Source: a virus. From it: a stretch of DNA of 55,578 nt. The stretch's first letter is position 1. Every line of letters begins with the position of its first letter. The stretch lies in the IMG/VR virus record IMGVR_UViG_3300032069_000014, positions 1-55,578 of that record, one strand, 5' to 3'. The notes under the pieces were generated by a model, which did no database searches, was not told the origin of the DNA, and saw only the letters and a program-made list of their open reading frames with translations. Positions 26,467-52,433 of the stretch are shown here, piece after piece. Made by a program: the position numbers and the translations under genes.

Positions 26467-26594
26467 TTTTACCTCGTTTCATTCTATGATCTCTAGATGT
26501 TTTATGTATCTATAATATTTTTTTGAAAAATCTATTAAACAATAGGATCTAGAGATCATAGAATACTCTTTACCGTGTTTTTTAGGGTATTTTC
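26467..26594 (+). repeat. Long repeat copy 2 (matches the inverted copy at 52.3 kb)
   Basis: Second unit, core 26481-26564. Positions 26469-26574 (106 bases) are by eye exactly the reverse complement of 52305-52410. Same 18-base inverted ends as copy 1. Confidence 0.88.
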
Positions 26595-26649
26595 GCGGCA
26601 TTTTATTCCTATCCTACACCACCTCAAAGCAGGCGAAAAAGGCCAAAAA

Positions 26650-26691
26650 TCCGCGGTTTTGACGCAGAAATCTGCGGTTTTCGCGCAGAAA
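26650..26691 (+). repeat. Two 21-bp direct repeats inside a hairpin
   Basis: Two adjacent 21-base units sharing tcNgcggttttNNcgcagaaa (26650-26670 and 26671-26691). They are flanked by aaaaatccgcg (26645-26655) and its complement cgcggattttt (26692-26702), so the whole block can fold on itself. Iteron-like; a binding site for a replication or regulatory protein is possible. Confidence 0.65.
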
Positions 26692-26802
26692 ACGCGGATT
26701 TTTCGGGGTTTTCTTGTAAGAATACGCGGTTTTATAGGTAATAATAGAAGGATCGCGTGATTCTTCAATTGTTGTGGTTAACTAACTAGAAGGAGAAAAA
26801 CC

Positions 26803-27084
26803 ATGTTAACCCCATCGCAAACAAGCAGTGCTGTAGTCCCGGCGCAGACGAAGACCGGAAAGAGCAAGAAGGCGAAGACGCAGACGCGGAAGGCGATTGT
26901 TCATCTGCGTCCGAAGGACGAGCCCAAGAAGTGGGTTCAAGTTCTCAAGGGCGTTGCTATTGTCGCCGGTAGCATCGGCGCGATGGTAGCGTTCTTCATC
27001 TTGGCTCCAGTTGCGACAGCGGCTGGGGTCGCAGCTGCTTCGGCGATCGCGCCGAAAGCGACAAAGATGATGATGCAGCCGTAG
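26803..27084 (+). CDS. Small basic single-pass membrane protein
   Basis: 93 residues, AGGAG before the ATG. Residues 1-47 are strongly basic (GKSKKAKTQTRKAIVHLRPKD), residues about 50-85 are hydrophobic and Gly/Ala-rich. First gene after the repeat region and ends in a strong stem-loop, so it forms its own short transcription unit. Function unknown; an early membrane-acting protein is a guess. Confidence 0.6.
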   Translation: MLTPSQTSSAVVPAQTKTGKSKKAKTQTRKAIVHLRPKDEPKKWVQVLKGVAIVAGSIGAMVAFFILAPVATAAGVAAASAIAPKATKMMMQP

Positions 27085-27097
27085 TAGTAGTAGGTGT

Positions 27098-27187
27098 GCG
27101 CAGCACAGAACGTTGCTGATCAATAGGATACCGGTTGTTCGTGGTGTATTCCGCGGTTAGTTGTGAAGCGTTCTGTGCTGCGCTTTT
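27098..27187 (+). terminator. 15-bp stem with long loop, terminator or small structured RNA
   Basis: gcgcagcacagaacg (27098-27112) pairs perfectly with cgttctgtgctgcgc (27169-27183), followed by tttta. The loop is 56 bases, long for a terminator, so a structured RNA such as a small RNA with its own terminator-like closing stem is possible. Confidence 0.65.
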
Positions 27188-27223
27188 ATTTTGCCTGACT
27201 TCTGTTTAAGAAGGAGAATTACA

Positions 27224-27775
27224 ATGAGCGACAGAATTGCTGCTCGGTGGCCCGGCGACAAAGACGCTGAGCTCGATGATGCTGCATGGGCGGGGATCAT
27301 TACAGTTCAGGGAATTCGTTATCATCGCCATCCAAATGGAGGCGGTTATGTTGCTGAGACCGCTCGCGTAGATGCAACTGCTTTCGTTGGATTGTTTGCA
27401 CGGGTCTGTGACAATGCACGGGTCTGCGTCAATGCACAGGTCTGTGACAATACACGGGTCTGTGACAATGCACAGGTCCGCGGCAATGCACTGGTCCGCG
27501 GCAATGCACGGATCTGCGGCGATGCACTGGTCTGCGGCGATACACTGGTCTGTGACAATGCACGGGTCTGCGTCAATGCACAGGTCTGCGGCGATGCACT
27601 GGTCTGCGGCAATGCACAGGTCTGTGACAATGCACGGGTCTGTGACAATGCACTGGTCTGCGGCAATGCACGGGTCTGTGACAGTGCACTGGTCTGCGGC
27701 GATGCACTGGTCTGCGGCGATACACAGGTCTGTGGTAGTGAGCGAGTTTGCGGCGATATAGGTATTAAGGAGTGA
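27224..27775 (+). CDS. Hexapeptide-repeat left-handed beta-helix protein with cysteine ladder
   Basis: 183 residues from ATG 27224 (AAGGAGA upstream). Residues 1-58 form a small N-terminal domain. Residues 59-178 are twenty back-to-back six-residue repeats of the form A-x-V-C-x-N/D (for example ARVCDN, ALVCGD). Six-residue periodicity with a small aliphatic residue is the mark of a left-handed parallel beta-helix; with Cys next to the aliphatic residue in 18 of 20 units, cysteines would stack along one face. Catalytic residues of hexapeptide acyltransferases are absent, so a structural or binding role is more likely. Confidence 0.7.
   Translation: MSDRIAARWPGDKDAELDDAAWAGIITVQGIRYHRHPNGGGYVAETARVDATAFVGLFARVCDNARVCVNAQVCDNTRVCDNAQVRGNALVRGNARICGDALVCGDTLVCDNARVCVNAQVCGDALVCGNAQVCDNARVCDNALVCGNARVCDSALVCGDALVCGDTQVCGSERVCGDIGIKE
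27398..27757 (+). repeat. Twenty tandem 18-bp coding repeats
   Basis: Unit of the type gcacgggtctgtgacaat repeated 20 times without gaps, 360 bases, in frame. Variation is concentrated in a few positions, so the array probably grows and shrinks in steps of 18 bases by slippage or recombination. Confidence 0.9.
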
Positions 27776-29310: not shown

Positions 29311-29612
29311 ACGGAAGTGTTCCTCCTCATACGATGCGTGCTATTCAAAGTTATGTCAAAGATCATGTTCCGCCTGGCTCGTTCCTCCGAGCTGTTTTCG
29401 AACACGAGTTGTTCGATGCTTTGGGACGCGCGGATTTAGAGAATCGGTACGCGATATTTGATATTGTGAGCTACATCTATAATAACGTACCCAATGCGTG
29501 TCATGGTAGTCCCGAAGTAGTTGCTGAGTGGCTAAAGAGAAGATGGGAGCCCATTGATAATGAAACTACCGCCGATGTACCCGTTTCAGGAAATGGTGGC
29601 GAAGGCGATTGA
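29307..29612 (+). CDS. Small phage early protein of unknown function
   Basis: 101 residues. The pattern PPHTMRAIQSYVKDHVPPGSFLRAVFEHELFDALGRAD...YIYNNVP...GSPEVVAEW is one often seen in short proteins of phage early regions. No function known to me. Translationally coupled with its neighbours on both sides. Confidence 0.6.
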   Translation: MNGSVPPHTMRAIQSYVKDHVPPGSFLRAVFEHELFDALGRADLENRYAIFDIVSYIYNNVPNACHGSPEVVAEWLKRRWEPIDNETTADVPVSGNGGEGD

Positions 29613-30921
29613 GAGAAAGAAAAGAGTCGGTTTTTTGGTCTATTATGGCGGAGGGAAAACTTATCTTTCACTTCGCTGGCTCGAGGAGTTAGGGGCTGAG
29701 GCATTGCCGTGTCTCGTTCTGTGTCCTAAGACTGCAATCGTTCAATGGGGAACGGAGATCAAGAAGTTTACCGATTTCACTTGTTCGCTTGTAGAGGGGA
29801 CGCCGGCGCAGCGTGTCGAGGCAATTGATGAACAGCATCAAGTATATGTGGCGAACTATGATGCTATACGAAGTGACTCGGTCTTTTCTGCGTTGAGACT
29901 AAGGGATTTCAAAACGATCATTGCAGACGAGTCGACGATGCTTAAAGAGCGAAGAACATTGCGATTCAAGCGCTTATGGAGTTTCTGTTGTCATATCCCG
30001 CATCGTGCTCTTCTTACGGGTCGTGTGATAACAGAGCGCCCCGAGGAACTCTTCGCTCAGTTTCTTTTTCTGGACGGAGGAGAGACCTTCGGTCGATCTT
30101 ACTGGCGTTTCCGATTCACGTATTTTGATGAGCCGCCGCCATGGAAGCCATATAAATGGGAGTTGAAAGAAGGAGCTGAGAAAGTGATAGCAAAGAAGCT
30201 CGAGTCGTCTTGCGTTCGTGTTCCAGAAGAGGTAGTGTCAGCGCAGTTGCCTCCGAAGCAGTACATGCGAATCCATTTTGACCTTTCTTCAGAAGAGAGC
30301 GCAGGATATAGGCAGCTACGGGATGAGTTTGCTCTCGATTTTCCCGAAGGAGGGCGTTACGAGACGCAGTGGGTTTTAGCTCGCTCGGCGAAGATGCATC
30401 AGTTCGCGAGCGGCTTCGTCTATCGTGAGTTAGATGAGCCGTTAATCTACAACACACGAAAGGCTGAATGGATCAGTGAGAATCTCCCTGAGATGCTATT
30501 GCGTGGCCCGTCAGTTATCTGGACAAGCTATTTGGTGCATCAGGTAGTTATTGAACTGGAGCTGTTAGCGAAAGGGTTCTCTTGTAGCAAGCTCAACGGT
30601 GAAATGAAGCAAGAAAAGAGGCAGCAGCAGCTCGATGCATTTTTGCAAGGGAAAACAGACATCTTGCTTATTATGGAGCAGCTCGGGGCTGCTGCGCTCA
30701 ACCTGCAGCGAGCCTGCAATGCTATCTTTGCTGATTGTGCTTACAGCGCTGCGATGAGAGAAAACGCCGAACATCGTACTTACCGCATAGGAACAGCGAA
30801 GACTGTTTTCTACTATGATCTAGTCACGCTCAAGACCTTAGACGAAGCGGTGCTAAACGCAATTCGCGACAAGAAAGAAATCTCCGACACGATTCTTCAA
30901 CACATAAGAGGAGTAGAGTGA
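29560..30921 (+). CDS. SNF2/DEAD-type helicase
   Basis: 453 residues from ATG 29560, inside the previous gene, with GGGAG upstream (TTG 29554 is an alternative). Superfamily 2 motifs: a Q-motif-like YPFQ, motif I YYGGGKT (residues 28-34), motif II ADEST near 124, motif III LLTGR near 150, motif V LLIMEQLGAAALNLQ and motif VI ENAEHRTYRIG. Compact phage helicase that probably acts in replication or recombination. Confidence 0.88.
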   Translation: MKLPPMYPFQEMVAKAIERKKRVGFLVYYGGGKTYLSLRWLEELGAEALPCLVLCPKTAIVQWGTEIKKFTDFTCSLVEGTPAQRVEAIDEQHQVYVANYDAIRSDSVFSALRLRDFKTIIADESTMLKERRTLRFKRLWSFCCHIPHRALLTGRVITERPEELFAQFLFLDGGETFGRSYWRFRFTYFDEPPPWKPYKWELKEGAEKVIAKKLESSCVRVPEEVVSAQLPPKQYMRIHFDLSSEESAGYRQLRDEFALDFPEGGRYETQWVLARSAKMHQFASGFVYRELDEPLIYNTRKAEWISENLPEMLLRGPSVIWTSYLVHQVVIELELLAKGFSCSKLNGEMKQEKRQQQLDAFLQGKTDILLIMEQLGAAALNLQRACNAIFADCAYSAAMRENAEHRTYRIGTAKTVFYYDLVTLKTLDEAVLNAIRDKKEISDTILQHIRGVE

Positions 30922-34262: not shown

Positions 34263-35159
34263 ATGGTCGTGACAGTGTCATTACGAAACATGTTTTTTGA
34301 CTGTCCGCGAAAGTTCTTCTTTTTCTATGTTCGGCGTCTTCAACGCAGGCAGACTCCGCACGCGCTGCAGTGGGGCTCGTTAGTACATCGAGCATTAGCG
34401 GTGCTCGACAATATGGGACTCGAAGGGGTCGATCTATGTGTGGCTGAAATCAGACATGAAATCGAAGAAGGGCTTTTCGCTGTTGAAGATCTCAATCAGC
34501 TTGACTCGATGCTCCGTGTTCTCCCGCACGCCATAGGAGCATACGCGTTGCGATATAAGGACGACGTATACGAGAACGTCGAATTGGAGCGGGAGTTCTC
34601 ACTTACTCTACCCAGCGGAAAGCATACCTTTCGAGGGAAAATTGATGCAGTCGTCAAACGCAAGGGTGAGGACGTTCTCTATCTTAAGGAGCGAAAGACC
34701 GCAGCACGTACGGGTGATGCTTACTATGAGCGATTACCTCGGGATCCCCAGCTAAGAGGATATGTTGCGGGTGCGCGGAGAGCTCTTGAGCTCTCTGTGC
34801 AGAATGTTCTCTATGATGTGTTGAAGAAACCGCAGCTCTATCGCCGTGTCGGAGAATCAGACGAAAGCTACGACGTGCGCCTCGGAGAAGAGTATCTGCT
34901 CAATAAAGATGAGCTGTGCGAGCGGCGTATCATCCCAATGGCGTCTATGAATGAAGATGCTTATTTCGCTGAGATGGATGAAGTAGCTGACATGATCGAA
35001 TGGTGCATTGCTCGTGGCGCTTTTCCCGAGCAGTGCGCAGGGAATCGTTTAGGGCGTTGTTCGTACGAGCCTCTGTGCAGTCAAGGCGCAGAGCATCTGT
35101 ATAGCCAACGTCCACAAGAAGAGCTCCATCCTGAGCTCGAAGCCACCGAAGGAGACTAA
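34263..35159 (+). CDS. Cas4-like PD-(D/E)XK exonuclease with Fe-S cysteines
   Basis: 298 residues, AAGGAG upstream. RecB-family nuclease motifs: the N-terminal SLRNMFFDCPRKFFFFYV with Cys14, GSLVHRAL, GKIDAVVK with Asp near residue 129, the E-x-K of LKERKTA about 20 residues later, and QLRGYVAGAR. Three further cysteines near the end (CAGNRLGRCSYEPLC) complete the four-cysteine pattern of a Cas4/AddB-type iron-sulphur cluster. Likely makes single-stranded ends for recombination, together with the RecA-like ATPase and ssDNA-binding protein 1 kb downstream. Confidence 0.85.
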   Translation: MVVTVSLRNMFFDCPRKFFFFYVRRLQRRQTPHALQWGSLVHRALAVLDNMGLEGVDLCVAEIRHEIEEGLFAVEDLNQLDSMLRVLPHAIGAYALRYKDDVYENVELEREFSLTLPSGKHTFRGKIDAVVKRKGEDVLYLKERKTAARTGDAYYERLPRDPQLRGYVAGARRALELSVQNVLYDVLKKPQLYRRVGESDESYDVRLGEEYLLNKDELCERRIIPMASMNEDAYFAEMDEVADMIEWCIARGAFPEQCAGNRLGRCSYEPLCSQGAEHLYSQRPQEELHPELEATEGD

Positions 35160-35202
35160 CATGACTGACTTAGTACGAGACGAAAAGTATAGTGCGAAGA
35201 GA
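35150..35202 (+). repeat. Shared leader copy 1 (RBS plus first codons)
   Basis: Identical or nearly so with 35511-35556 and 37510-37562: AGGAGACTAAC, ATG and codons for MTDLVRDEKYSAKR. Covers the ribosome site and the N-terminus but none of the rest of the gene. Confidence 0.85.
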
Positions 35203-35511
35203 AGGATCGTATCCGCTGCTGTCGTCGCTGCAAATGCGATAGAGCCTATTGAGGTGGCGTTAGAAAAACTACGCGAACAAAGGCATATACACACACCTCG
35301 TCGTTGGACTGATCCGTTCGAACCGTATATTGACGATCTCTCCGAGTTTAGAGCAGAAGGAGAAGCAGATAACACTGAGATACATGATTGGTGCTTGGGG
35401 GGAGCAGTACATGTTCGGTGTACAGAGGGAATTTTTAATGAAATGATGGCGCGCAGGTACGACAAACCCAAATTCAAACCACCACCAATTACTAAGAAGC
35501 AATACGGCTAA
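35161..35511 (+). CDS. Leader-sharing small protein 1
   Basis: 116 residues beginning MTDLVRDEKYSAKR, a leader also found on two other genes. The rest is mixed helical, with HIHTPRRWTDPFEPYIDDLSEF in the middle and a basic proline-rich end. Function unknown. Preceded by AGGAGACTAAC. Confidence 0.6.
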   Translation: MTDLVRDEKYSAKRRIVSAAVVAANAIEPIEVALEKLREQRHIHTPRRWTDPFEPYIDDLSEFRAEGEADNTEIHDWCLGGAVHVRCTEGIFNEMMARRYDKPKFKPPPITKKQYG

Positions 35512-35556
35512 GGAGACTAACATGACTGACTTAGTACGAGACGAAAAGTATAGTGC
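35511..35556 (+). repeat. Shared leader copy 2
   Basis: Second copy of the RBS-plus-leader repeat, identical to copy 1 through the SerAla codons and diverging after AGTGCG. Confidence 0.85.
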
Positions 35557-35851
35557 GGAGAAGAAAACTCCAGCAGGGACGTTCGGCAGCAAAAAGCGCT
35601 ATACTGAAGATAGCGTACTCATGCGCCCGGGTATGACGATATATGTGTTAGGTAAAGAGCCTTGGCCAAATCTTCTATATGGCCCAGTAGTTATAGAACG
35701 CTTACAAGAAACGTATCTTATACCTGCGGAGCCTAGTAATGATACAGGATATAAAGACAGGCTTTATTATGACAGCTGCACTTTCTTCAGCACGCGTAAA
35801 GCCACACTGAATGCGATCGGTGAATGGCGGAAATCTCACGGATACCTCTAA
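35522..35851 (+). CDS. Leader-sharing small protein 2
   Basis: 109 residues beginning MTDLVRDEKYSAEKK. After the leader the sequence (KKRYTEDSVLMRPGMTIYVLGKEPW) is beta-rich and unrelated to the other leader-bearing proteins. The body resembles a small barrel (VLGKEPWPNLLYGPVVIERL). Function unknown. Confidence 0.6.
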   Translation: MTDLVRDEKYSAEKKTPAGTFGSKKRYTEDSVLMRPGMTIYVLGKEPWPNLLYGPVVIERLQETYLIPAEPSNDTGYKDRLYYDSCTFFSTRKATLNAIGEWRKSHGYL

Positions 35852-35861
35852 GGAGACTGAC

Positions 35862-36056
35862 ATGTTCAATTGCGCTATCTGCCTAAAACCAAGCAAACCA
35901 GGAGAGAAGATGAACAAGCAAACACTACTGGAGAGAGAAAGGATTTACCCGAATGGAAGTCGAGGAAGAGAGATAGTGCTCGAAGTGGGTATCTGTACTA
36001 GCTGCAAAAAAGCCGTTGATAGTCTCGAAGGTGTCAAGGAGACGATCAGTGCTTAA
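35862..36056 (+). CDS. Small zinc-ribbon protein
   Basis: 64 residues from ATG 35862, preceded by AAGGAGACTGAC, close to the RBS of the leader repeat. CAICLKPSKPGEK and CTSCKK provide four cysteines for a zinc ribbon. Its stop overlaps the GTG start of the next gene. Confidence 0.65.
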   Translation: MFNCAICLKPSKPGEKMNKQTLLERERIYPNGSRGREIVLEVGICTSCKKAVDSLEGVKETISA

Positions 36057-36873
36057 ACAAGAGCTCACACCGCCGGTAGAGGATCCAAAGAAGTGGTTGA
36101 TACTAATTCACGGTGAGAGTGGTGTAGGGAAGACTTCATGGGCAGCACAGATTCCTGGCCATTACTTTGTGCGAACTGAAGAAGGATGCAAGGGTCTCTT
36201 TACATATGGGGAGACTGTGACTTCCTGGACTCAATTCGTCAATGATATTGTAGGTGAGATACTCAAGGGAGCCGACAAGAACTGGGAGGGACAGCGCCGC
36301 ATCGAGACTCTCATCGTTGACGTCGCAGAGAAACTCTGGTGGCTCTGTGCGGATTGGATCGCGAAAAACAAACAATTCATGGTGCGTGGCGTCGCTCAAT
36401 CTTTCACTGACATTCGCCATGTACCTTACGGGCTCGGTTACTCTGATACAACGGTGGAGTTCATGCGTATCATTCGGCTGATACAGCGCACGGGTGTAGG
36501 TGTCGTTCTTATCTCGCACACGAACTACCGTCACTTCAAGTGGGGTACAGAGGATCTACGCCGAGCGGAGCCCGACTTTAGCGCAGGTACAGTAGACGAG
36601 ATCGTGGGGGAGTGTGATGCAGTCGGCTACTTCGCTATAGATGAGAAAGTGAAAAAAGAAGCCCAAGGAGAGAGCCTTGTCATTGTCTCTACCGAGCAAG
36701 GACGCTTCCAACATTGGCAACCTCAGTTTCTTCGAATCGCAAAACATCGATTTGATCTACCCGAGGTGATTCCTCTTCCTAAATATGAAGGTTGGGGTGT
36801 GTATTGTGAGGAATTCGAGAAAGGAGCCGCACGCGAACAAGAAAGGCAGATGAAAACTAGTATCCGAACATAG
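36049..36873 (+). CDS. RecA-like recombinase/ATPase, Sak4-like
   Basis: 274 residues from GTG 36049 (AAGGAGA six bases upstream). Walker A GESGVGKT at residues 22-29 and Walker B TLIVDV near 87. The compact single-domain layout (AAA_24 type) with KKWLILIHGESGVGKTSWAAQIPG is that of phage Sak4-like proteins, which anneal or exchange strands with help of an ssDNA-binding protein. The next gene is such a protein, and a Cas4-like exonuclease is upstream: a recombination module. Confidence 0.82.
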   Translation: MLKQELTPPVEDPKKWLILIHGESGVGKTSWAAQIPGHYFVRTEEGCKGLFTYGETVTSWTQFVNDIVGEILKGADKNWEGQRRIETLIVDVAEKLWWLCADWIAKNKQFMVRGVAQSFTDIRHVPYGLGYSDTTVEFMRIIRLIQRTGVGVVLISHTNYRHFKWGTEDLRRAEPDFSAGTVDEIVGECDAVGYFAIDEKVKKEAQGESLVIVSTEQGRFQHWQPQFLRIAKHRFDLPEVIPLPKYEGWGVYCEEFEKGAAREQERQMKTSIRT

Positions 36874-36896
36874 CTTTTGAGAACAAGGAATCAAAC

Positions 36897-37379
36897 ATGA
36901 GCGAAGATGTAACAAAAGCACTAGAAGAGTCACAAGCAGCTTGGGCCGAGGCGCGTGAGCAACCGAGGCAGGCGACAACGCTACCTTTAGGTAGCTATCT
37001 ATTCAAGATCACCAACGCTTTCGTCGGTCGATCTACGGGTGAAGCACAAAGACTTCAGCTCCGCATTGACCTCCAGGTTCTTAGAGGACCGAACGAGGAA
37101 GTAGTCGGACGTAGCTACTTTAAGACCTGGGGACTTGAAGACGCTGAGCAGATGAAGTGGCTTGCAGGTGACCTCTTGAATCTTGGTCTTGAGCTCCCTA
37201 CCGAGGTTAAGAAGATTCCGACGGAAACCTGTCTCGCGTTGATCAATGTGTGCTTTGAAGCTCAGGTCCGTCCCTCGCGGGATCCGCAATACGGCCCGAA
37301 CGTGTGGATCTCGAAAAATGCAAGGAGAACACCCGAGGGCGACCTCGCGGGTAGCGGTGAAGGCGGCCTAAGATACTAA
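36897..37379 (+). CDS. ssDNA-binding-like protein (DUF669-type)
   Basis: 160 residues. LPLGSYLFKITNAF, RLQLRIDLQVLRGP, GRSYFKTWGLEDAEQMKWLAGDLLNLG and FEAQVR form an OB-fold-like strand pattern found in DUF669 proteins that accompany Sak4-like ATPases. It lacks the acidic tail of bacterial SSB but ends in an acidic-glycine segment. Expected to coat single-stranded DNA. Confidence 0.72.
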   Translation: MSEDVTKALEESQAAWAEAREQPRQATTLPLGSYLFKITNAFVGRSTGEAQRLQLRIDLQVLRGPNEEVVGRSYFKTWGLEDAEQMKWLAGDLLNLGLELPTEVKKIPTETCLALINVCFEAQVRPSRDPQYGPNVWISKNARRTPEGDLAGSGEGGLRY

Positions 37380-37421
37380 TGGTTTAGCGTAGCGTATTCT
37401 CCTTCCGCTGCGCCCAGAGGA

Positions 37422-37500
37422 GCTGTGGTGAGTGAAGCACCTGGGAGTTCACCCGAATCCGCTGAGCGGACCGAGGTAGGTTCAAATCCTACTCACAGCT
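37422..37500 (+). tRNA. tRNA-like gene, isotype uncertain
   Basis: Acceptor arms gctgtgg (37422-37428) and tcacagc (37493-37499) pair, with a T-arm gtagg-ttcaaat-cctac (37476-37492) that has the invariant TTCAAAT loop. Between them are three more hairpins possible: ggtg-agtgaag-cacc, tggg-agttca-cccg, and tccgc-tga-gcgga. The last resembles a long variable arm of a type II tRNA. The anticodon arm is irregular (six-base loop), so the isotype cannot be called and it may be degenerate. No encoded CCA. Confidence 0.5.
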
Positions 37501-41453: not shown

Positions 41454-42237
41454 ATATACCTCACTATTACCGGGTCGTTTCTGTATCGGTTCAGCAGCAG
41501 TATGTAACAACAGATACAGAGACTTCTTCAAAAAGTCGGCAGCGCAAGGGTATCGTGTCATTCTCGACAACGGAGCTTTCGAAGGAAATCTTCTCGCTCC
41601 CTCGATGCTACATGAGCTCGCGTGTGAAATTGGAGCCGCAATTGTTGTTGCACCGGATATTTATAACGGCGATACACAAGAGAGCTTGTCTCTATCACAG
41701 CGCTATCTGGACGAGTATTTAGGAGAAGCCTCTTATTCGCTGATGCTTGTACTGCAGTGTGCGCCAGGTCAGATTTTGATCGATGAAATGATTGAAGGAT
41801 TACCGAAAGGTTTCGATTGGATTGGGCTCCCTCGGATACTCGCTCATAATCTGTATGCTCGACAAACGCATTGCAACAAACAAGAGTTGCTGCGTTTTCT
41901 TCTCGCGGCCAATTTACAATCGGGCGCAGCTTTTGGTAAGTTAAGAGAAAGAAAGATTCACTTTCTCGGTTTGGGTGACGAGCTTTTCATGCTCCCGTAT
42001 TTCTGGTGGGTAGATTCAATCGACACTGCTTCGCTTTTCTGGCAAGCAATGTGCGGTAATAGAGTTACGAAAGACGGATTTCTCCACACGCGTATTTCTC
42101 GTCCTTCTAACTACTTCTCTCTTACTCACGCCGGGCCCCAATTCGAAAGCTGCCTCGAGCATAACTGCAAATATGCTCTTGAATGGGCCGAAAAAGCGAA
42201 CGAGCGGCGAAGAGAAATTACCGGCAATCTTTATTAG
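41416..42237 (+). CDS. dpdA: DpdA-like 7-deazaguanine DNA transglycosylase
   Basis: 273 residues, GGGAG upstream. Fold and motifs of tRNA-guanine transglycosylase relatives: RVILDNGAFEG with Asp51, VVAPDIYNGD with Asp81, the glycine-Leu-Pro base-pocket motif FDWIGLPRI, IHFLGLGD and WVDSIDTA with the later aspartate. DpdA proteins exchange guanine in DNA for a 7-deazaguanine base, protecting phage DNA from restriction. The zinc cysteines of tRNA TGT are not seen. The presence of folE, queD, queE and queC around it supports this assignment over a tRNA role. Confidence 0.82.
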   Translation: MDLSLITPPAFVEYTSLLPGRFCIGSAAVCNNRYRDFFKKSAAQGYRVILDNGAFEGNLLAPSMLHELACEIGAAIVVAPDIYNGDTQESLSLSQRYLDEYLGEASYSLMLVLQCAPGQILIDEMIEGLPKGFDWIGLPRILAHNLYARQTHCNKQELLRFLLAANLQSGAAFGKLRERKIHFLGLGDELFMLPYFWWVDSIDTASLFWQAMCGNRVTKDGFLHTRISRPSNYFSLTHAGPQFESCLEHNCKYALEWAEKANERRREITGNLY

Positions 42238-42246
42238 GAAAAGAAA

Positions 42247-42576
42247 ATGATAACCACAGATAGCGAACCTGCAGGATACGCGTTCAAGATGTTGATAAAT
42301 GGAAGAATCAATGGTATAGAGCACTTTATGTTGGACCTAGAAAACATGTTGCACGCATTGTTTGGGCCTCAACGAGTTTTATGGCAAGGATGGACTTTCG
42401 AGGATACGACAATATTTATATTTACAATAGCTTCGCCTACTGCGCATGAGTCGGCGAAATTTATCAAACTCGCAACAACAATACCGCTAGATCAGAGCAG
42501 CGCCTATTTTGCGCCCACGTACGTCTCTCTTTCTGATCCAGGTACGTTCAAAACCTTAGCTGAGGTGGCATCATGA
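42247..42576 (+). CDS. Hypothetical protein
   Basis: 109 residues, alpha/beta, with QGWTFEDTTIFIFTIASPTAHESAKF in the middle. Starts ten bases after dpdA. No family recognised. Overlaps a small membrane protein gene by four bases. Confidence 0.5.
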   Translation: MITTDSEPAGYAFKMLINGRINGIEHFMLDLENMLHALFGPQRVLWQGWTFEDTTIFIFTIASPTAHESAKFIKLATTIPLDQSSAYFAPTYVSLSDPGTFKTLAEVAS

Positions 42577-42710
42577 TCGTTCTGTTCGCGTTAATATGCG
42601 TTCTCTTCGGGGGACCGTGGGTAGCGCTCCTGGGATTCTTTATACTCCTCTGGGTAACGGTGAAAGAATGCTTCAAAACATCTGCCCCTATCCCACCCAA
42701 GAGCAAATAG
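42573..42710 (+). CDS. Small hydrophobic membrane protein
   Basis: 45 residues: MIVLFALICVLFGGPWVALLGFFILLWVTVKECF then a short polar proline-rich end. One or two membrane helices. It overlaps the previous stop by four bases and the DNA polymerase start by 43 bases, so it may couple the two. Too short for an assignment. Confidence 0.5.
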   Translation: MIVLFALICVLFGGPWVALLGFFILLWVTVKECFKTSAPIPPKSK

Positions 42711-44476
42711 ATGCTTCCGATAAACCGATTGCTCTTGATACTGAGACTGAAGGTGAGACGAGAGACACGAATATCCCTGTCTACTTCAGCTGGGCTGCAC
42801 GCGACTTTGGTTCGGGAGCCGGTCCGCTTCTTACACCCGAGGGCTTCGAAGCAGCGCGACGACTATGTGAGAATTCGCGCCCAAAGATATGCCATAACCT
42901 AAAGTTCGATGCTCAGTGCTTCGATTATCTAGGATTCAATCTGAACGGGGAGCTCCACGATACCACGTTACTGCACGTTCTCCTTGACGAACACCATCTC
43001 GAGCATCACCGCCTCAAAGCACTTTCGCGCGAGCTGTTAGGTCGTTCGCGAAGCGATGAGTACGTAATGGATCGCGAACGCGAGAAGCACTATTTCACCG
43101 AAATACCGCAAGAGCTTTCGCATCCATACGCGGTGAGTGATGCAGAAGATGCCTTGGAACTCTTTTATCTCTTTGCTCCGCAGGTAAAAGAGATAGGCTG
43201 TTGGGATCTCTATCGTAATGAAGTTGCTGCGGCGCTTGCTTATAAGAGAATAGAGCAAAGCGGAGTGGGAGTAGATCTCGATGCGCTTACTATTGCTCTG
43301 GGACGTATAGATGAGGCGCTCACTAAACTATCAGAGCAGATCTATGCGGTCTTTGATGAACAATTTCTGATAAGCAGCGCGGAGCAATTAGGGGATGTCC
43401 TCGTAAAACATTTTCCTCTTTTAGAAAGAACCGCAACAGGGCAGGTTGCTACAAGTAAAAAGATACTGGAACCTTTCAAGAGTGACTCGCGAATGCAACT
43501 TGTGCTTGCGTTTCGCTTTCTCTTCAAGTCAGCGTCGACGTTAAGGGGTTATTATCGAAGAGTAAGAGAAGGGAGAGTACACCCGGAGTATCGCCAAACG
43601 ACCACAACAGGAAGAAGTGCAGCAAAAGATCCGCCCGTACAGCAGATTCCGAAACAACGAGGTCGCATCACAGAAATCGAAGTAGGTTCCAAGGAGCTCG
43701 CGCAGATATGCGCAGATGCATTTCGAAGTGTACGCGCAGTGTTCATCCCCTCACCGGGCGCTTTTCTGCTCGCAATTGACTATTCCCAGATCGAGTTCTG
43801 CGCCTTCGTTCACTACACAGGAAGTAAGCGCTTGGCTGAAGCTGTGGTGAACGGTACAGACATTCATCGCGCAATATGCGAGATGGTCTTCGGTACATAT
43901 GACGATCGTCTCCGCCACATCACAAAAATGCTCAACTATGGCATCCTTTACGGAATGTCTGTTAAACGAGCGGGGCAGCAGCTCGCGGGCGAGAAACTAG
44001 GAGATATAAAAGTCGAGGATATTATTCCAAGATATGAGCGCGCGATTCCCGAAATGAGAGGAACACAGAAACTAATTCAGACCGTAGGTGAGATGAGAGG
44101 ATATGTCAAGGACATTTTTAGTCGGCGTTATCGTTACGCCGAGCATATTGGTTCCTATACCTTAGTCGCTTGGCTTTGTCAGGGTACTGTCGCGAATATG
44201 AAGAAACATGCGCTGGTGCGTTGCGACCGCCTATTAGAAGGACGGAGAAGCCGAATATGCTTAGATATTCACGATGAGCTGGTCTTCGATCTCTTTCCGG
44301 AAGATATCTCTCTTATTCCTCTTATCAAAGCCGAAATGGAACGATTTCCTGAACTGTGTGTTCCGACGAAAGTCGAGATAAGTGGCGGCCCTAATCTGCT
44401 ATTGCTAAAGAAAATGACCGTTGAACAACTAACAGGCCCCGAAGAGCCTTGGAAGGAATGGATCAATGGGCGATGA
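42668..44476 (+). CDS. polA: DNA polymerase A family
   Basis: 602 residues from ATG 42668 (an upstream ATG at 42596 would make an unlikely tail). N-terminal 3'-5' exonuclease: PIALDTETEG near residue 22, ICHNLKFDAQ near 76, VSDAEDALEL near 157. Polymerase motif A LLAIDYSQIEF near 367, motif B KMLNYGILYG near 420, motif C DIHDE (533-537). No 5'-3' exonuclease domain, as in T7-like polymerases. The residue at the position of E. coli Pol I Phe762 is Tyr, as in T7. This is the replicative polymerase. Confidence 0.92.
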   Translation: MLQNICPYPTQEQIDASDKPIALDTETEGETRDTNIPVYFSWAARDFGSGAGPLLTPEGFEAARRLCENSRPKICHNLKFDAQCFDYLGFNLNGELHDTTLLHVLLDEHHLEHHRLKALSRELLGRSRSDEYVMDREREKHYFTEIPQELSHPYAVSDAEDALELFYLFAPQVKEIGCWDLYRNEVAAALAYKRIEQSGVGVDLDALTIALGRIDEALTKLSEQIYAVFDEQFLISSAEQLGDVLVKHFPLLERTATGQVATSKKILEPFKSDSRMQLVLAFRFLFKSASTLRGYYRRVREGRVHPEYRQTTTTGRSAAKDPPVQQIPKQRGRITEIEVGSKELAQICADAFRSVRAVFIPSPGAFLLAIDYSQIEFCAFVHYTGSKRLAEAVVNGTDIHRAICEMVFGTYDDRLRHITKMLNYGILYGMSVKRAGQQLAGEKLGDIKVEDIIPRYERAIPEMRGTQKLIQTVGEMRGYVKDIFSRRYRYAEHIGSYTLVAWLCQGTVANMKKHALVRCDRLLEGRRSRICLDIHDELVFDLFPEDISLIPLIKAEMERFPELCVPTKVEISGGPNLLLLKKMTVEQLTGPEEPWKEWINGR

Positions 44477-44588
44477 GTTAAAAGAAATCGCAGACCGACT
44501 AGAGAACGCGATCGACGGCACAGATAACGAGGAGCTTCAGGATATTCTCGATGATCTGCGGGAGTACATAGCTAACACGGAGGGATAA
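44466..44588 (+). CDS. Small acidic protein
   Basis: 40 residues, strongly acidic helical (DELKEIADRLENAIDGTDNEELQDILDDLREYI). AAGGAATG upstream; start overlaps the polymerase stop by 11 bases. No family recognised. Size and charge recall small protein inhibitors or nucleic-acid mimics; that is only a guess. Confidence 0.45.
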   Translation: MGDELKEIADRLENAIDGTDNEELQDILDDLREYIANTEG

Positions 44589-44592
44589 CTTC

Positions 44593-45192
44593 ATGAAGAG
44601 CCTCATTCTCGGTACAGGTGGAATCTGTAGCGCAACAGTAATGTCTTTGGCAAGAAAAGAAGGCGAGGCTATAGCTCTCTTCATAGAGCACGACCAAGAT
44701 AACATAAATCGGGACCACGATGCTTTTTTGGCTCTTTGCGGATACTTCGACATAGGTGCGCTCTCTGAGCCTTTACGCGCTCCGAAAATATGGCTCCCTT
44801 TCAAGCTAACGCTTTTCATTTCTTACGCTCTTGTACGTGCGCAAGAGCTAGGATGCGGAATCGTATACTATGGGGCGAGCCAAGACGATCTATTGATCGA
44901 GAGTAGTGAGACGTACTTGTCTACATTCCGTCTCCTTGCACGAAAATTCCAAGAGGAGGAAGAAAAGGAACCGTCGGTTGATGCCGAAGCGCCTCTTGCT
45001 CTTCTGGATATAAAACGCATTATCCGCGTCGGTTCAGATCCTGCCTATAAGGTTCCTTGGGAGCTAACCTATAGCTGCGAAAAAGGAGGCGAGAAACATT
45101 GTGGTGAATGCACTCATTGTAAACGAAGACGCGCAGGCTTCGCCGCATGTAGAATGAAGGATCCTGCAAAATACATAAGGATAAGGAAATAA
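44593..45192 (+). CDS. QueC-like protein with altered PP-loop
   Basis: 199 residues. Same architecture as QueC: an N-terminal PP-loop ATPase and a C-terminal zinc site SCEKGGEKHCGECTHC (Cys162, 170, 173, 176). The PP-loop reads TGGICSAT (8-15) where QueC has SGGLDST, so the catalytic Asp is replaced by Cys12. TYSC and KHCG are shared with the true QueC 2.7 kb downstream, indicating duplication. It probably acts on a 7-deazaguanine intermediate, by a different reaction, or has lost ATP chemistry; neither is known. Confidence 0.72.
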   Translation: MKSLILGTGGICSATVMSLARKEGEAIALFIEHDQDNINRDHDAFLALCGYFDIGALSEPLRAPKIWLPFKLTLFISYALVRAQELGCGIVYYGASQDDLLIESSETYLSTFRLLARKFQEEEEKEPSVDAEAPLALLDIKRIIRVGSDPAYKVPWELTYSCEKGGEKHCGECTHCKRRRAGFAACRMKDPAKYIRIRK

Positions 45193-45206
45193 CAAGGAGT
45201 TAAGTA

Positions 45207-46061
45207 ATGGAACATAAAACGGTCCTTTTTCTTGTGGTTTTAGTTCTCCTCGGCCTAGCTGTATGCATCATTGTGATGGAATCAGATCCAGTAACGCGAG
45301 ATTTGCGTCTCGAAATAGCGAAACGACAAGTCGAATACAGAGAAAAAGCTATAACCGAAAGAGAAAAAGCAGAGCAGGAAATTGCAGCCATAAGAGAAAA
45401 TGCGGCGGCGAAAAAGGCACAACTACTCGAACCGCGTGAAGAACCGACTAAGATTGAAGCACCGCCTAAGATTGAAGGCCCGGGTTTCTTTGAGAAGCCC
45501 ACCGCTTCAGCACCCACTCCGGCGCCGGCACTGACACCTCCACCAGTACCCGCTCCGGCTACAGCACCGGCTCTAACTCCACCAGTTCCTACCACGACGC
45601 CACGACCCAGCATACAAGCCAAGTGCGCTTATTGTCGTGGCTTAGGGACCATACAGTGCCAGGCTTGTATAAACACCGGTGGTTTCTCTACTGGCCTTAT
45701 GGCGTGCCCTATATGTAATACAGCTCGAACAGTTGTATGTCCTTCTTGTAATGGTCACTGGGATGAACTCTGTACCCGATGTTCGGGCAAAGGATATATT
45801 CTAGTCCAAGAATATCGACCTGGTACGGAATATATACCAGGTTATGGTCGTGTTGCTACACGAGTTCTGTGCACGGTTAGAAAAGACTGTACGGCTTGCG
45901 GATCAACGGGTAGAATCATTCTATGTAGAAAATGTATAAAGGGTCGTATCCAATGTCCTAATTGTAAAGGTGCTGGAAGAATTGGTGTGTGCCCGGTATG
46001 TAAGGGAGAGAAACGTGTGCCCTGCCCCAAATGCAGTTCGACCACCGACTCAATGAGGTAA
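45207..46061 (+). CDS. Membrane-anchored DnaJ-type cysteine-rich protein
   Basis: 284 residues. Residues 4-23 form a membrane segment, about 28-73 a charged coiled coil, 74-135 a proline/alanine-rich linker, and 137-284 about ten CxxC knuckles, several with the DnaJ form CxxCxGxG (CAYCRGLG, CTRCSGKG, CPNCKGAG). This is the zinc domain of DnaJ without the J domain. Could hold unfolded proteins or thiols at the membrane. Its location between the two QueC-like genes is unexplained. Confidence 0.7.
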   Translation: MEHKTVLFLVVLVLLGLAVCIIVMESDPVTRDLRLEIAKRQVEYREKAITEREKAEQEIAAIRENAAAKKAQLLEPREEPTKIEAPPKIEGPGFFEKPTASAPTPAPALTPPPVPAPATAPALTPPVPTTTPRPSIQAKCAYCRGLGTIQCQACINTGGFSTGLMACPICNTARTVVCPSCNGHWDELCTRCSGKGYILVQEYRPGTEYIPGYGRVATRVLCTVRKDCTACGSTGRIILCRKCIKGRIQCPNCKGAGRIGVCPVCKGEKRVPCPKCSSTTDSMR

Positions 46062-46065
46062 GAAA

Positions 46066-46284
46066 ATGAAAACCAACACAACAATAGAAGGTCAGCTTGA
46101 GATTGATCACGATCGTGGTGTGATCTACTTCCATAGTCTCACTGGGCAGACAGAGTTGCGTATTTGTCGTTTGCCTCGTCCGATTCCGAGATACAAGGCG
46201 CTTGACATCACGCATATGTACGGATGCAGTTGGAACGAAGAGAAGGACTCGAGCAAAAATGAAGATCATAGCGATCGATCCTAG
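46066..46284 (+). CDS. Hypothetical beta-rich small protein
   Basis: 72 residues: TTIEGQLEIDHDRGVIYFHSLTGQTELRICRLP, strands ending in charged tail. Similar-looking small proteins accompany phage replication genes but no function is assigned. Overlaps the resolvase gene by 26 bases. Confidence 0.5.
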   Translation: MKTNTTIEGQLEIDHDRGVIYFHSLTGQTELRICRLPRPIPRYKALDITHMYGCSWNEEKDSSKNEDHSDRS

Positions 46285-46858
46285 CTACGAGGACGGAGGA
46301 CTGGGCTATGCTATTTTAGAAAGCCCAGAGAAGTTACTGCTGTGGGGTACTACTCACTCTGACGCACCTAAAGATGCGCCTTTCGAGCAAAAGGTCGCTG
46401 CAGCGCTTGTTGTGCTAGAGAGAGATATCCTGCACTGTGGATTGATGGGTGAAAGAGGACGGCTCGTCATAGAGATGCCGGAGGTTTGGGGCGGGTTCAA
46501 AGCAGCGATGAGTACAAAAACCGGAGTGTTACATAAGCTGTTCTTTTTCGTCGGGGCTTTATGGCAATGGGGGCGGGAGCGACAACTTAGTCCGGTACTA
46601 ATCCCTGTACGAGAATGGAAAGGACAATTACCGAAGGAAGTAACAAGAAAAAGAGTCGAGGACACGTTCGGCATCAAAACCAAAAATACACACGAAGCAG
46701 ATGCGATTGGTCTAGGTTTATACTATCTAAAAAAGGCGACACAGAATGACAACACAGGAATTCTTCAAGGAGCTTCCCGGATGCAACCTCTGCAAGGAGC
46801 GAGCACTCGTTCAGAGCTGTCTGCGAGCAAAAGGGGAACCCGTCCCAGCGAAAGGTAA
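46259..46858 (+). CDS. RuvC-like resolvase/endonuclease
   Basis: 199 residues from ATG 46259. RNase H fold of the RuvC type: MKIIAIDPSYEDGGLGYA with Asp7, LVIEMPEVWGG with Glu, and THEADAIGLGLYYL with Asp. Metal-dependent cleavage of branched DNA, resolving packaging or recombination junctions, is expected. The C-terminal 37 residues overlap the next gene by 113 bases and are likely not part of the fold. Confidence 0.8.
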   Translation: MKIIAIDPSYEDGGLGYAILESPEKLLLWGTTHSDAPKDAPFEQKVAAALVVLERDILHCGLMGERGRLVIEMPEVWGGFKAAMSTKTGVLHKLFFFVGALWQWGRERQLSPVLIPVREWKGQLPKEVTRKRVEDTFGIKTKNTHEADAIGLGLYYLKKATQNDNTGILQGASRMQPLQGASTRSELSASKRGTRPSER

Positions 46859-47348
46859 CTTCAATGCTCGGGCAGTACTTATAGGCCGTAATCCAGGAGC
46901 GACCGAAGCACGCGAGCTAGTGCCTTTTTGCGGCGCAGCAGGAGACCAACTTAATGTAGCACTTTTTGCTGCGGGGATAAAACGGGCAGAATGTTATGTT
47001 ACGAACGTGGTGAAATGTTTTACTCCTACTGGTGTTTCGCCTAGTATCGCTTGCCGCAGGAGATGCGTCGGCCGCTGGCTCGATCGCGAACTTGCCCAGC
47101 TTGAGGAGCTAAAGCTGATCGTTACATTCGGTAACGAAGCCTTACAGTATTTCGATACCGAGGCAACTGTAGGGCAGCTCCACGGAACATCCTTTTCGGT
47201 TTACGTCAAACAAAGAACGCAGCCAACAATGTTGTTCGTAATGTTTCATCCAGCCGCTTGTCTCCACGATCCCCGAATCATAAAACGATTCGAAGAGGAT
47301 GCAAACGAATTAGGTAGAGTAGCCAAGGAACTAGGAGTAACACAATGA
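46746..47348 (+). CDS. Uracil-DNA glycosylase, family 4-like
   Basis: 200 residues. Iron-sulphur cysteines begin at C13 and C16 (GCNLCKERAL) and continue with the ACRRRC pair. Motifs LIGRNPGATEARELVPFCGAAGDQLN (catalytic and base-pocket region), YVTNVVKCFTP and FHPAACLHD fit UDG family 4. Would remove uracil or a modified base. It might proofread modified-base DNA, but context alone suggests that. Confidence 0.82.
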   Translation: MTTQEFFKELPGCNLCKERALVQSCLRAKGEPVPAKGNFNARAVLIGRNPGATEARELVPFCGAAGDQLNVALFAAGIKRAECYVTNVVKCFTPTGVSPSIACRRRCVGRWLDRELAQLEELKLIVTFGNEALQYFDTEATVGQLHGTSFSVYVKQRTQPTMLFVMFHPAACLHDPRIIKRFEEDANELGRVAKELGVTQ

Positions 47349-48007
47349 AAATTGTACTTTTACTTTCGGGCGGACTTGATAGCACGGTACTGCTATATCA
47401 TTTATTAAGTTGTAAGCATGAAGCCATAACTCTCTCTGCTTGGTACCTACAACGTCACGCCAGAGAGTTAGACGCAGCACAGGAAATCGCTGATTCAGCT
47501 AAGGTTGAACATCACTATATGAATTTCTCAAATTTCGGGAGCATAGTAAATTCCGCTCTTACGACGCCCGAGATAGAAGTGCCTCAAGGAGACTACACAC
47601 CGGAAGTACTCAAAACCATTATAGTCCCAAATCGGAACGCATTACTTCTTAGTGCCGCTTTCGGGCTCGCTTTCACCCGAAACGCATTTGCTGTTGCGTA
47701 CGCAGCGCATAGCGGGGACCATGCGATATACCCTGACTGCAGACCCGAATTCATCTACGCTTTCGAAAAAGCTATGGAACTAGCTTGGTTCCCTGAAAAG
47801 AGAGTGAAGCTCATAGCACCTTTCGCGACTTATACGAAAACACAGATTGTTCGGCTTGGCTCTGAACTCAATGTACCTTTTGGGCTAACCTATAGCTGCT
47901 ATGTAGGTAAGAAAAAACATTGTGGGCAATGCCCAACTTGCAGAGAGAGAAGAAAAGCTTTCGCAGAAGCACATGTTCTTGATCCCACAGAATACGAGGA
48001 GAAATAA
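47345..48007 (+). CDS. queC: 7-cyano-7-deazaguanine synthase QueC
   Basis: 220 residues. ATP-dependent conversion of 7-carboxy-7-deazaguanine to preQ0. PP-loop SGGLDST (8-14) with Asp12, the PNRNALLLSAA block, AYAAHSGDH, YPDCRPEF, and the zinc site at SCYVGKKKHCGQCPTC (Cys185, 193, 196, 199) are all standard. Four-base overlap with the glycosylase gene. Completes the core preQ0 pathway with folE, queD and queE. Confidence 0.93.
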   Translation: MKIVLLLSGGLDSTVLLYHLLSCKHEAITLSAWYLQRHARELDAAQEIADSAKVEHHYMNFSNFGSIVNSALTTPEIEVPQGDYTPEVLKTIIVPNRNALLLSAAFGLAFTRNAFAVAYAAHSGDHAIYPDCRPEFIYAFEKAMELAWFPEKRVKLIAPFATYTKTQIVRLGSELNVPFGLTYSCYVGKKKHCGQCPTCRERRKAFAEAHVLDPTEYEEK

Positions 48008-49803: not shown

Positions 49804-49848
49804 AGCAGGTGACCCACCGAAAGGTGGGTCACTTGCTATTTTTTTTTT
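49804..49848 (+). terminator. Strong Rho-independent terminator
   Basis: gcaggtgacccacc (49805-49818) pairs with ggtgggtcacttgc (49823-49836), one G-T pair, closed by a GAAA tetraloop and followed by ten T. Ends the early unit that contains the deazaguanine genes. Confidence 0.92.
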
Positions 49849-49915
49849 ATTTGCTCATTTTTTCAAGCTACTCTTTTTTATTTACCTTTATTTTTAATTT
49901 TTTGCAAAAAAGATG

Positions 49916-49944
49916 TTGAAAAATTCATTTTTAGACCTTATAAT
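49916..49944 (+). promoter_or_regulatory. Sigma70-like promoter before zinc protein and primase
   Basis: TTGAAA (49916-49921), 17-base spacer, perfect TATAAT (49939-49944), behind a long A/T-rich stretch (49849-49915) that could act as UP element. ATG of the next gene is 23 bases downstream, with AAAGGA as ribosome site. The gene-free 49849-49967 stretch contains only this. Confidence 0.78.
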
Positions 49945-49967
49945 ATAAGAAGATAGAAAGGACTCAA

Positions 49968-50168
49968 ATGAGACCAATGGTATTCCACACACAAAAATCA
50001 AGGGTTACGAGTATCTGTGTGCAATGCAAAAGTGATCTCCCTCGCGGAGTCTCTATTGTACGCCAAGGTGCGCTCTGTTTTCATCGGGAATGCTTCGAAG
50101 AGCACCTCACAGAACAGATGATGCGATATAAACAAGCACTCGCGCAGCTAAGGAGAGAGCATGAGTGA
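49968..50168 (+). CDS. Small LIM-like zinc protein, paralogue B
   Basis: 66 residues, paralogous to the protein at 33289: CVQCKSDLPRGVSIVRQGALCFHRECFEEHLTEQMMRYKQALAQL has the same C-x2-C...H-x2-C frame and C-terminal helix. Both are the first gene after a strong promoter, which suggests a shared regulatory or early takeover role. Overlaps the primase gene by eight bases. Confidence 0.65.
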   Translation: MRPMVFHTQKSRVTSICVQCKSDLPRGVSIVRQGALCFHRECFEEHLTEQMMRYKQALAQLRREHE

Positions 50169-52305
50169 ACTTCTCAAAGCGGCGTTGGATTATGCAAAGC
50201 TTGGCTGGAAGATTATTCCCTTACACGGTGTGAGTGAAGATGGTCGTTGTCTATGCCGAGAAGGCTGTACAGGCAAAATTGTAGGCAAGAAGCCACACAT
50301 TAAAGAATGGCAGGAGAAAGCTACTACAGATGAAACAACCATTCGTTCATGGTGGAGTAAGTGGAAAGACGCTAATATAGGTATAGTCACTGGTGGACCA
50401 TTGCTCGTAGTTGATGTCGATCCAAGAAATGGAGGCAACGAGACACTCGCGGCAATCGAAAAAGAACACGGACGATTGGCTACAGCGCAGATACTCACCG
50501 GAAGCGGAGGAGCACACTATTATTTCCTCAAAGACAAAGAGAAGAGGATCAAAGGAGGCACAGGTCTCTTAGGACCAGGGATCGACATCAAGTCCGAAGG
50601 AGGATTTGTCGTCGCACCGCCAAGTCGGCATTTGAGCGGAGAAATATACAAGTGGGTCTCCGACCATCTCAAAGCACTTCCAGCATGGCTTCTCGAAGAG
50701 ATTAACAAAAAGCATACGAAGAACCCCGAAGTTCTTCCCGACCGAATTCCCGCAGGTGAAAGACATGATGTTCTCCTTAGCTACGCCGGTCGCCTCCGTC
50801 AAGCAGGTCTTACATACGATGAGATCTCACAGAAGCTAAACGAGGCTAACACAAGGTGTGTTCCGCCCTGCTCGTTATCTGAGGTTGACGAAATCGCGCA
50901 GAGCATCATGAATTATCGTGTTGCTGACTATACATTTGATGGTATCGGTAATGCTCATCGTTTTCGCGACGAACACAAGCACGTGATACGACGCTGTATA
51001 GATGAAGGGAGCTGGTACATCTGGCGCGGGAATCGTTGGCGCAGAGCATCCGATGACGAGATCACACAACTCAGTATAGCGACGATCGAACGTATACGTA
51101 CCTTCGCTTCATTATCGGGTGATCTCGAAGAGAAGATGAGAAACTGGGCGCGAGCCTGCCGCACAGAAAGACGCGTTCGCGAACTCTGCTACTTGAGCAC
51201 CGCTACAGAGGAATTTCATGTACGCTCGCCCTCTTTCAATAACGATCCATTTCTCCTCAACTGCAGTAACGGCACACTGCAGCTGAAGTCACTCCGTCTT
51301 CGTGAGCATCAACGCGAGGACCTACTGACGAAAATAACAAAAGTCCGATTCAACCCAAACGCGCACAGCGAACGCTGGGACAAGTTCCTCTATGAAGTGT
51401 GTCGCGGAAAGCAGGATCAGATTAACTACTTGCAACTCGCTGTTGGCTACTCCCTGACCGGTGTAACTGACGAGGAGAAGGTCTTTTTCATTGTTGGTCC
51501 AGGAGGCACAGGTAAAACGACATTTGTTGAAGCCATCCGACGCATTATGGGCGAATACTGCACCACGAGTAGCCCTCAGGAGTTTCTTTCTGCTACACGG
51601 AGTAGCTCCGCTCCGACACCAGGGATAGCAAAACTCGCAGGCACACGTTTAGTCATTAGTAGCGAAATACCTCACGGCGCCCGTTTAGCTGAGTGGGTAG
51701 TTAAAGCGCTCACAGGCGGTGAGGTAATAACAGCTCGGCATTTGTACAGAGAGGAGTTTGATTTCCTACCGCAATTTAAGTTGTGGATGACAATGAATGA
51801 AGCTCCTCGCTTCAACTACAAAGATAGCGGGATTAAGCGCCGAATTATCATTATTCCGTTTGAATTCACACCGCCGCAGCCTGACCCTACATTAAAACGC
51901 GCTTTTCGTATAGATCCTACTGAGCAGGAAGCCATTCTCGCTTGGGCCGCGCACGGTGCTTTGAGGTGGTGTGAGGGAGACGTTTTAAGTGAACCTGAAT
52001 GTATTATCCAAGCTACACAGTCATATCAGATGGAGCAAAATCCACTCTCGCTCTGGCTTGATGACGAAACTTCACGAGACGAGGATGCTTGGACACCCAC
52101 AAAGAAACTCCGCGAATCCTTTAATTTATGGGCGTCCCGAAAAGGAGTGCGTCTATCGGACTTCGGTTTAGTGAGCGATCGTGCTTTCGCCGATGCACTC
52201 CGGACGCTCAACTTCCGCAAGGGAAATAGTGTCGACAAGGAGTCTGGGCGTCAAGCGAATGGGTGGTCCGGTATAAGGCTTAAGACGGAGCAAGAGAGAT
52301 TTTAG
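50161..52305 (+). CDS. Primase-polymerase/superfamily 3 helicase (D5/P4-like)
   Basis: 714 residues. N-terminal AEP primase-polymerase domain: AKLGWKIIPLHG, the zinc-like CLCREGC, VVDVDPRNGG near residue 84 with metal-binding aspartates, and GSGGAHYYF. D5-type linker follows (about 250-400). The SF3 helicase has Walker A GPGGTGKTTF near 446, then a Walker B-like RLVISSEIP and motif C LWMTMNEAP. It would open and prime the phage origin. Its end lies at the inverted repeat. Confidence 0.9.
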   Translation: MSELLKAALDYAKLGWKIIPLHGVSEDGRCLCREGCTGKIVGKKPHIKEWQEKATTDETTIRSWWSKWKDANIGIVTGGPLLVVDVDPRNGGNETLAAIEKEHGRLATAQILTGSGGAHYYFLKDKEKRIKGGTGLLGPGIDIKSEGGFVVAPPSRHLSGEIYKWVSDHLKALPAWLLEEINKKHTKNPEVLPDRIPAGERHDVLLSYAGRLRQAGLTYDEISQKLNEANTRCVPPCSLSEVDEIAQSIMNYRVADYTFDGIGNAHRFRDEHKHVIRRCIDEGSWYIWRGNRWRRASDDEITQLSIATIERIRTFASLSGDLEEKMRNWARACRTERRVRELCYLSTATEEFHVRSPSFNNDPFLLNCSNGTLQLKSLRLREHQREDLLTKITKVRFNPNAHSERWDKFLYEVCRGKQDQINYLQLAVGYSLTGVTDEEKVFFIVGPGGTGKTTFVEAIRRIMGEYCTTSSPQEFLSATRSSSAPTPGIAKLAGTRLVISSEIPHGARLAEWVVKALTGGEVITARHLYREEFDFLPQFKLWMTMNEAPRFNYKDSGIKRRIIIIPFEFTPPQPDPTLKRAFRIDPTEQEAILAWAAHGALRWCEGDVLSEPECIIQATQSYQMEQNPLSLWLDDETSRDEDAWTPTKKLRESFNLWASRKGVRLSDFGLVSDRAFADALRTLNFRKGNSVDKESGRQANGWSGIRLKTEQERF

Positions 52306-52314
52306 GTAAAGAGT

Positions 52315-52398
52315 ATTCTATGATCTCTAGATCCTATTGTTTAATAGATTTTTCAAAAAAATATTATAGATACATAAAACATCTAGAGATCATAGAAT
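52315..52398 (-). repeat. Long repeat copy 3, inverted relative to the 26-kb copies
   Basis: 84-base core with the same 18-base inverted ends; with flanks, 52305-52410 is by eye the exact reverse complement of 26469-26574. It starts at the stop of the primase gene, before the MazG gene. The downstream flank (acctcaaagcagg) also recurs near 26620. Confidence 0.88.
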
Positions 52399-52433
52399 GA
52401 AACGAGGTAACAACCTCAAAGCAGGAGCAAAAC

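Follow-up and report, generated by a model that had tools for sequence, protein, structure and literature searches.

A stem-loop of ~100 nt located 3' of the gene for Rep, a protein that combines Prim-Pol, SF3 helicase and winged-helix parts, is essential in pRN1; its symmetry matters, it is functional when moved, a stem-loop is also present in Bordetella phage BIP-1, and specific binding of pRN1 Rep to the stem-loop was not demonstrated (PMC4234260). The winged helix is the reported DNA-binding part of both pRN1 Rep and the alpha protein of P4, the latter being a Toprim-type primase (PMC4234260). In PICI/SaPI elements, the ori lies directly 3' of rep and comprises two repeat sets around an AT-rich region, and a plasmid was replicated with rep together with ori (PMC6092414). 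P4 has initiator sites, ori1 and crr, that bracket the block containing its primase (alpha) gene, and crr, according to the record annotation, consists of two 120-bp direct repeats, each with oppositely oriented iterons around a short spacer. Phage SPP1 carries two similar origins, oriL and oriR, about 12-13 kb apart and composed of repeats plus an AT-rich region; the proposed view is that initiator sitting on oriR blocks the fork and thereby sets off concatemer synthesis, for which a resolvase, exonuclease and recombinase are used (PMC6316719, PMC3485210).

The window analyzed here is a whole IMG/VR record, a linear contig of 55,578 nt on which no end repeat was found. Its late half had no match to sequenced phages by megablast, its marker proteins are less than about 40% identical to those of any sequenced phage, and close relatives sought through single proteins were not found. 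The predicted genes all run rightward, with a late block ending at 26305 and an early block at 26803-52305, the last gene of which encodes a primase-helicase. Domain and profile matches bore out the original prediction that this block carries replication, recombination and modification genes: on the plus strand it encodes an SNF2/DEAD-type helicase (29554-30921), a PD-(D/E)XK exonuclease assigned to recombination (34263-35159), a Sak4-like recombinase (36016-36873; phrog_124, 1.6e-29), a family A DNA polymerase (PolA, 42596-44476) and a RuvC-like Holliday junction resolvase (46202-46858; phrog_159, 3.7e-8), as well as a uracil glycosylase.

Two perfect inverted copies of a 106-bp repeat had been predicted to flank the early region, and both are real: the 106 nt at 26469-26574 reappear without a mismatch, as the reverse complement, at 52305-52410, with 25,730 nt between the two. 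A third copy had been missed. Copy 1 (26323-26438, plus strand) is a 116-nt unit in direct orientation, 93% identical over 116 nt to copy 2 (26467-26582, plus strand) at an offset of 144 bp, so that the two make up a tandem pair at the left site. Copy 3 (52305-52410, minus strand) is the inverted one. The anatomy of the 84-bp core was confirmed as 18-bp inverted arms around a 48-bp middle with no T-run directly after it, and the arms are the same in all copies (26337-26354 and 26403-26420 in copy 1, 26481-26498 and 26547-26564 in copy 2, and 52315-52332 and 52381-52398 in copy 3). The arm, ATTCTATGATCTCTAGAT, thus occurs six times in the window versus 0.03 times expected by chance, and no further match was found in the window even with up to 3 mismatches allowed. 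Between copies 1 and 2, 8 of the 116 positions differ, none of them among the 36 arm positions (Fisher P 0.056), and copies 2 and 3 match at every position, through the core and out into 10-12 bp of flanking sequence past it. The sequence TTACC borders each of the three copies on either side. The spacers are 83% A+T versus 49% for the window, and 48-mers as AT-rich as these occur only in copies 1-3 and in an AT-rich intergenic stretch at 49.84-49.94 kb. Iteron substructure is weak, in that only TCTA recurs inside each arm, at a 9-bp spacing (shuffle P = 0.087). The 12-mer CCTCAAAGCAGG occurs at 26622 and 52414 in the same orientation, downstream of copies 2 and 3, and may be an accessory motif or a chance occurrence.

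The phage encodes its own primase-helicase of the P4 family (50161-52305, plus strand), and the repeat is, in our reading, probably the cis-acting site that this protein uses for replication. This proposed initiator combines an AEP-type Prim-Pol domain, PriCT_1, a D5_N/SF3 helicase and a C-terminal winged helix: Pfam domains Prim-Pol, PriCT_1, D5_N and DUF5906 were detected, and the protein scored 242 bits (cut-off, 108.7) against TIGR01613, "phage/plasmid primase, P4 family". An AlphaFold model of its C-terminal 154 residues had a mean pLDDT of 84.7, and its best structural match was the DNA-bound winged-helix RFX DNA-binding domain (E 4e-3, TM 0.74 by target length), with a weaker match to AsfvPrimPol. 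A search of solved structures with the primase matched only the D5/SF3 part, to 7ola, "DNA primase".

Copy 3 shares its first base with the primase gene, as the third base of the stop codon (52305), and the first arm of the copy begins 10 nt after the stop. We read copy 3 as a candidate replication origin because its layout is that of the published PICI origins and of the pRN1/BIP-1 stem-loop: a P4-family initiator, a place 3' of the initiator gene, and inverted repeats around an AT-rich region. Position, anatomy and the relatives described below make this assignment, drawn from sequence, well supported. The winged-helix C-terminus of the primase would bind the arms, the D5/SF3 ring would assemble on both arms and melt the AT-rich spacer, and the Prim-Pol domain would then prime synthesis, such that copy 3 would act as an origin. 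The likeness has its limits: the PICI/SaPI replicons are satellite elements with clear multi-iteron arrays, in contrast to the weak iterons in the 18-bp arms of this phage, and the pRN1 and BIP-1 replicons share the Prim-Pol, SF3 helicase and winged-helix Rep and the ~100-nt stem-loop 3' of its gene but have one site, whereas three copies are present here.

Remote relatives were used for comparison because no close relative was found. The set was built on the primase gene and comprised 79 members at about 25-40% identity, some of them from loci that are close kin of one another; inverted repeats with a stem of at least 12 bp (or, more strictly, at least 16 bp) and a spacer of 25-110 nt were counted in a zone from -20 to +400 of the primase stop. 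Stems of at least 12 bp numbered 36 in 33 kb of primase-stop zones versus 22 in the other 1105 kb, an enrichment of about 55-fold, and stems of at least 16 bp numbered 15 in these zones versus 4 elsewhere in the same loci. A repeat of the former class was present 3' of the primase in 33 of 79 loci, more than half being without one. The arms differ widely among loci. The relatives' sites often begin 7-20 nt past the primase stop, close to the +10 of copy 3, and often show iteron arms with spacers of 50-70 nt; in the clear cases, each arm holds two iterons with a period of 8-10 bp in the pattern + + - -, with one cluster per record. Bordetella phage BPP-1 has the same arrangement at 26607-26710, in agreement with the published stem-loop of the near-identical BIP-1. 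These results suggest that, in many Prim-Pol/D5 phages, the origin can be recognized by inspecting the DNA 3' of the primase. Because a Thermaerobacter plasmid with a full-length primase 33.5% identical to that of the phage has a +++/--- array 5' of the primase operon, and P4 has arrays at both ends, such a site may lie 5' or 3' of the replication genes, and this phage may have it at both positions.

In 25 sizeable related records (28-71 kb examined), of which only about six, BPP-1 counted, had sites with iterons clear enough for a strict test, no second dispersed copy of the primase-proximal site was found, including in BPP-1. One candidate for a second iteron cluster (4587-4668 of L065) was dropped, as it lies inside a coding frame; in the same locus, a second match of the region past the hairpin falls outside the origin-like repeat. 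Inverted matches of at least 60 nt in a few relatives were rejected as artefacts, since their coordinates are those of overlapping ends of fetched pieces. Pseudomonas phage MR14 has two adjacent long hairpins, at 66-188 and 288-376, whose arms (GCACC.GATGAACCG.CTG) resemble each other; on a circular map they lie about 3.3 kb from the primase of that phage.

A GC-skew check had been proposed with the original prediction, and it returned minus-to-plus switches near both sites that are modest and vary with window size. At 4-fold degenerate sites, the skew changes from about -0.1 to -0.2 on the left to +0.2 to +0.27 on the right at 26 kb, and from about -0.2 to -0.3 to +0.26 at 52-53 kb. No other minus-to-plus switches are as strong as those at 25.5-27.0 and 52-54 kb, which fall within about 1.6 kb of the sites; at the exact sites, the skew lies at about the 83rd-93rd percentile of positions, and the third-position skew has a further peak near 6 kb. 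GC skew thus lends weak support to the origin reading. Among the four options originally offered, paired origins fit best, given the place 3' of a P4-family primase, the shared anatomy and the skew switches.

Copies 1 and 2, which lie between the late and early blocks, are not directly 3' of the primase gene, and we infer, from sequence identity and by analogy, that they would be a second site of the same initiator. Unusually, the phage has these two extra copies at the far end of the early genes in addition to one copy after the initiator gene, as in many relatives. Since no second dispersed copy was found in the relatives, a role for copies 1 and 2 is drawn from the analogy with P4 and SPP1: they may be a second origin, an accessory element like P4 crr, or a fork barrier like SPP1 oriR. 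P4 was the only known system encountered in this analysis that combines a tandem pair with a further site; it shares with the phage a P4-family primase-helicase, initiator sites that bracket the primase gene block, and a tandem pair of ~120-bp repeats at one end. On the other hand, the tandem pair adjoins the primase in P4 and lies at the far end of the block in this phage, P4 ori1 is without the simple inverted-arm form, and the site spacing is about 5 kb in P4 versus 25.7 kb here. SPP1 is likewise a lytic phage with one origin type in two copies and recombination-dependent late replication, the recombination set of which has its equivalent here in the Sak4, exonuclease and RuvC genes; it differs in using the initiator G38P and a DnaB-type helicase in place of a P4-family primase. 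The layout of the phage works like those of P4 and SPP1, yet it is not a P4 replicon, because its primase domain is an AEP Prim-Pol instead of the Toprim type. If copies 1 and 2 acted as a barrier, they could bring about a switch to recombination-dependent concatemer synthesis by the products of the Sak4, exonuclease and RuvC genes. Tentatively, the early region may be served at its two ends by one and the same P4-family primase-helicase, with a theta start at one site and the tandem pair as a programmed barrier or second origin that initiates concatemer synthesis; we found no description in the literature of such a P4/SPP1 hybrid strategy for Prim-Pol phages. What was an unexplained repeat can now be tested as two replication sites whose initiator is proposed by name, and the 25.7-kb two-ended layout would allow a test of whether duplicated origins provide a second start or a switch of replication mode.

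Copies 2 and 3 were probably copied or gene-converted recently, which would leave them exactly identical. Template switching, or conversion between the copies, was among the options first proposed and may account for the identity, while saying nothing on function.

A rather unlikely alternative is that copies 1 and 2 are merely operators through which the primase or another repressor would control the early promoter in an autoregulatory manner, with copy 3 as the sole origin. The first early gene begins about 230 bp downstream of the two copies, and the arms hold small palindromes of the kind typical of operators; against this, the entire module is kept, AT-rich spacer and 10-12 bp flanks included, and a tandem pair of complete modules looks like P4 crr. 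The gap that follows copy 2, ahead of the early block, also holds GC-rich 21-bp tandem repeats (AAATCCGCGGTTTTCACGCAG) with an imperfect palindrome (26647-26701, plus strand, the region extending to 26713), which could be a promoter or regulator region.

It is quite unlikely that the repeats are hairpins at transcription boundaries, ending or processing the late transcript at copies 1 and 2 and the early transcript at copy 3, although a symmetric element would work in either orientation, the copies come directly after the last gene of each block (26305 for copy 1, which starts at 26323, and 52305 for copy 3) and the RNA folds strongly (z -4.7 and -5.3). As originally argued, this is not a typical terminator: the stem is AT-rich, the loop is 48 nt, a T-run does not follow directly, and the phage has an ordinary intrinsic terminator at 49804-49850 (plus strand) with a 15-bp GC-rich stem, a 4-nt loop and a T-run. 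The iteron arms and long spacers of the relatives' sites are also unlike terminators, and an Rfam search with the repeat returned no family.

Improbable as well is the proposal that the 25.7-kb block flips by recombination between copies 2 and 3 or was assembled in the wrong orientation. The perfect 106-bp inverted repeat and the Sak4-like recombinase could mediate homologous inversion, and a large inversion known from the literature, SPP1invmir, takes in replication genes (PMC6316719); misassembly at the repeat may also have occurred in this linear contig, which was judged from the assembled sequence. The assembled order, however, is co-directional throughout and matches the early-to-late order of a remote relative (L012). 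For the invertible segment originally suggested, homologous inversion is conceivable, and no site-specific recombinase was found in Pfam and PHROG scans of most of the larger ORFs; a host enzyme could be involved.

A MITE-like mobile element, also suggested originally, is highly improbable: the 84-bp core has 18-bp terminal inverted repeats and three copies, and the 106-bp unit is bordered by 5-bp TTACC direct repeats, but the core ends are without target-site duplication (flanks GTTTC/ACTCT and GTTTC/GCTTC), the identity of copies 2 and 3 continues 10-12 bp beyond the core, copies 1 and 2 resemble a tandem duplication, no copy turned up when IMG/VR and the genome contigs were searched for the arms, both exactly and with gaps, and the repeat had only chance blastn matches among phages and plasmids, so that the core looked for in other genomes had no match in the phage, plasmid, viral and genome collections.

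The early block has further features of its own. A 7-deazaguanine gene set at 38091-48007 includes QueD (PTPS), QueE, a FolE-like gene (40041-40685, assigned by eye) and two QueC-like genes (44593-45192 and 47345-48007), and suggests modified DNA bases; the QueE-like radical SAM gene (38527-40086) is interrupted by an insertion that resembles an intein and carries a LAGLIDADG domain (Pfam). An 18-bp tandem array of about 18.7 copies at 27191-27775 encodes a beta-solenoid/hexapeptide-repeat protein, and three 58-nt direct repeats (AGGAGACTAACATGACTGA..., 90-93% identical) at 35150-37567 run across the starts of short genes and are a duplicated leader and N-terminus. The contig ends (1-3000 and 54000-55578) have a G+C content of 0.59-0.64 versus about 0.50 elsewhere, as if they adjoined on a circular map.
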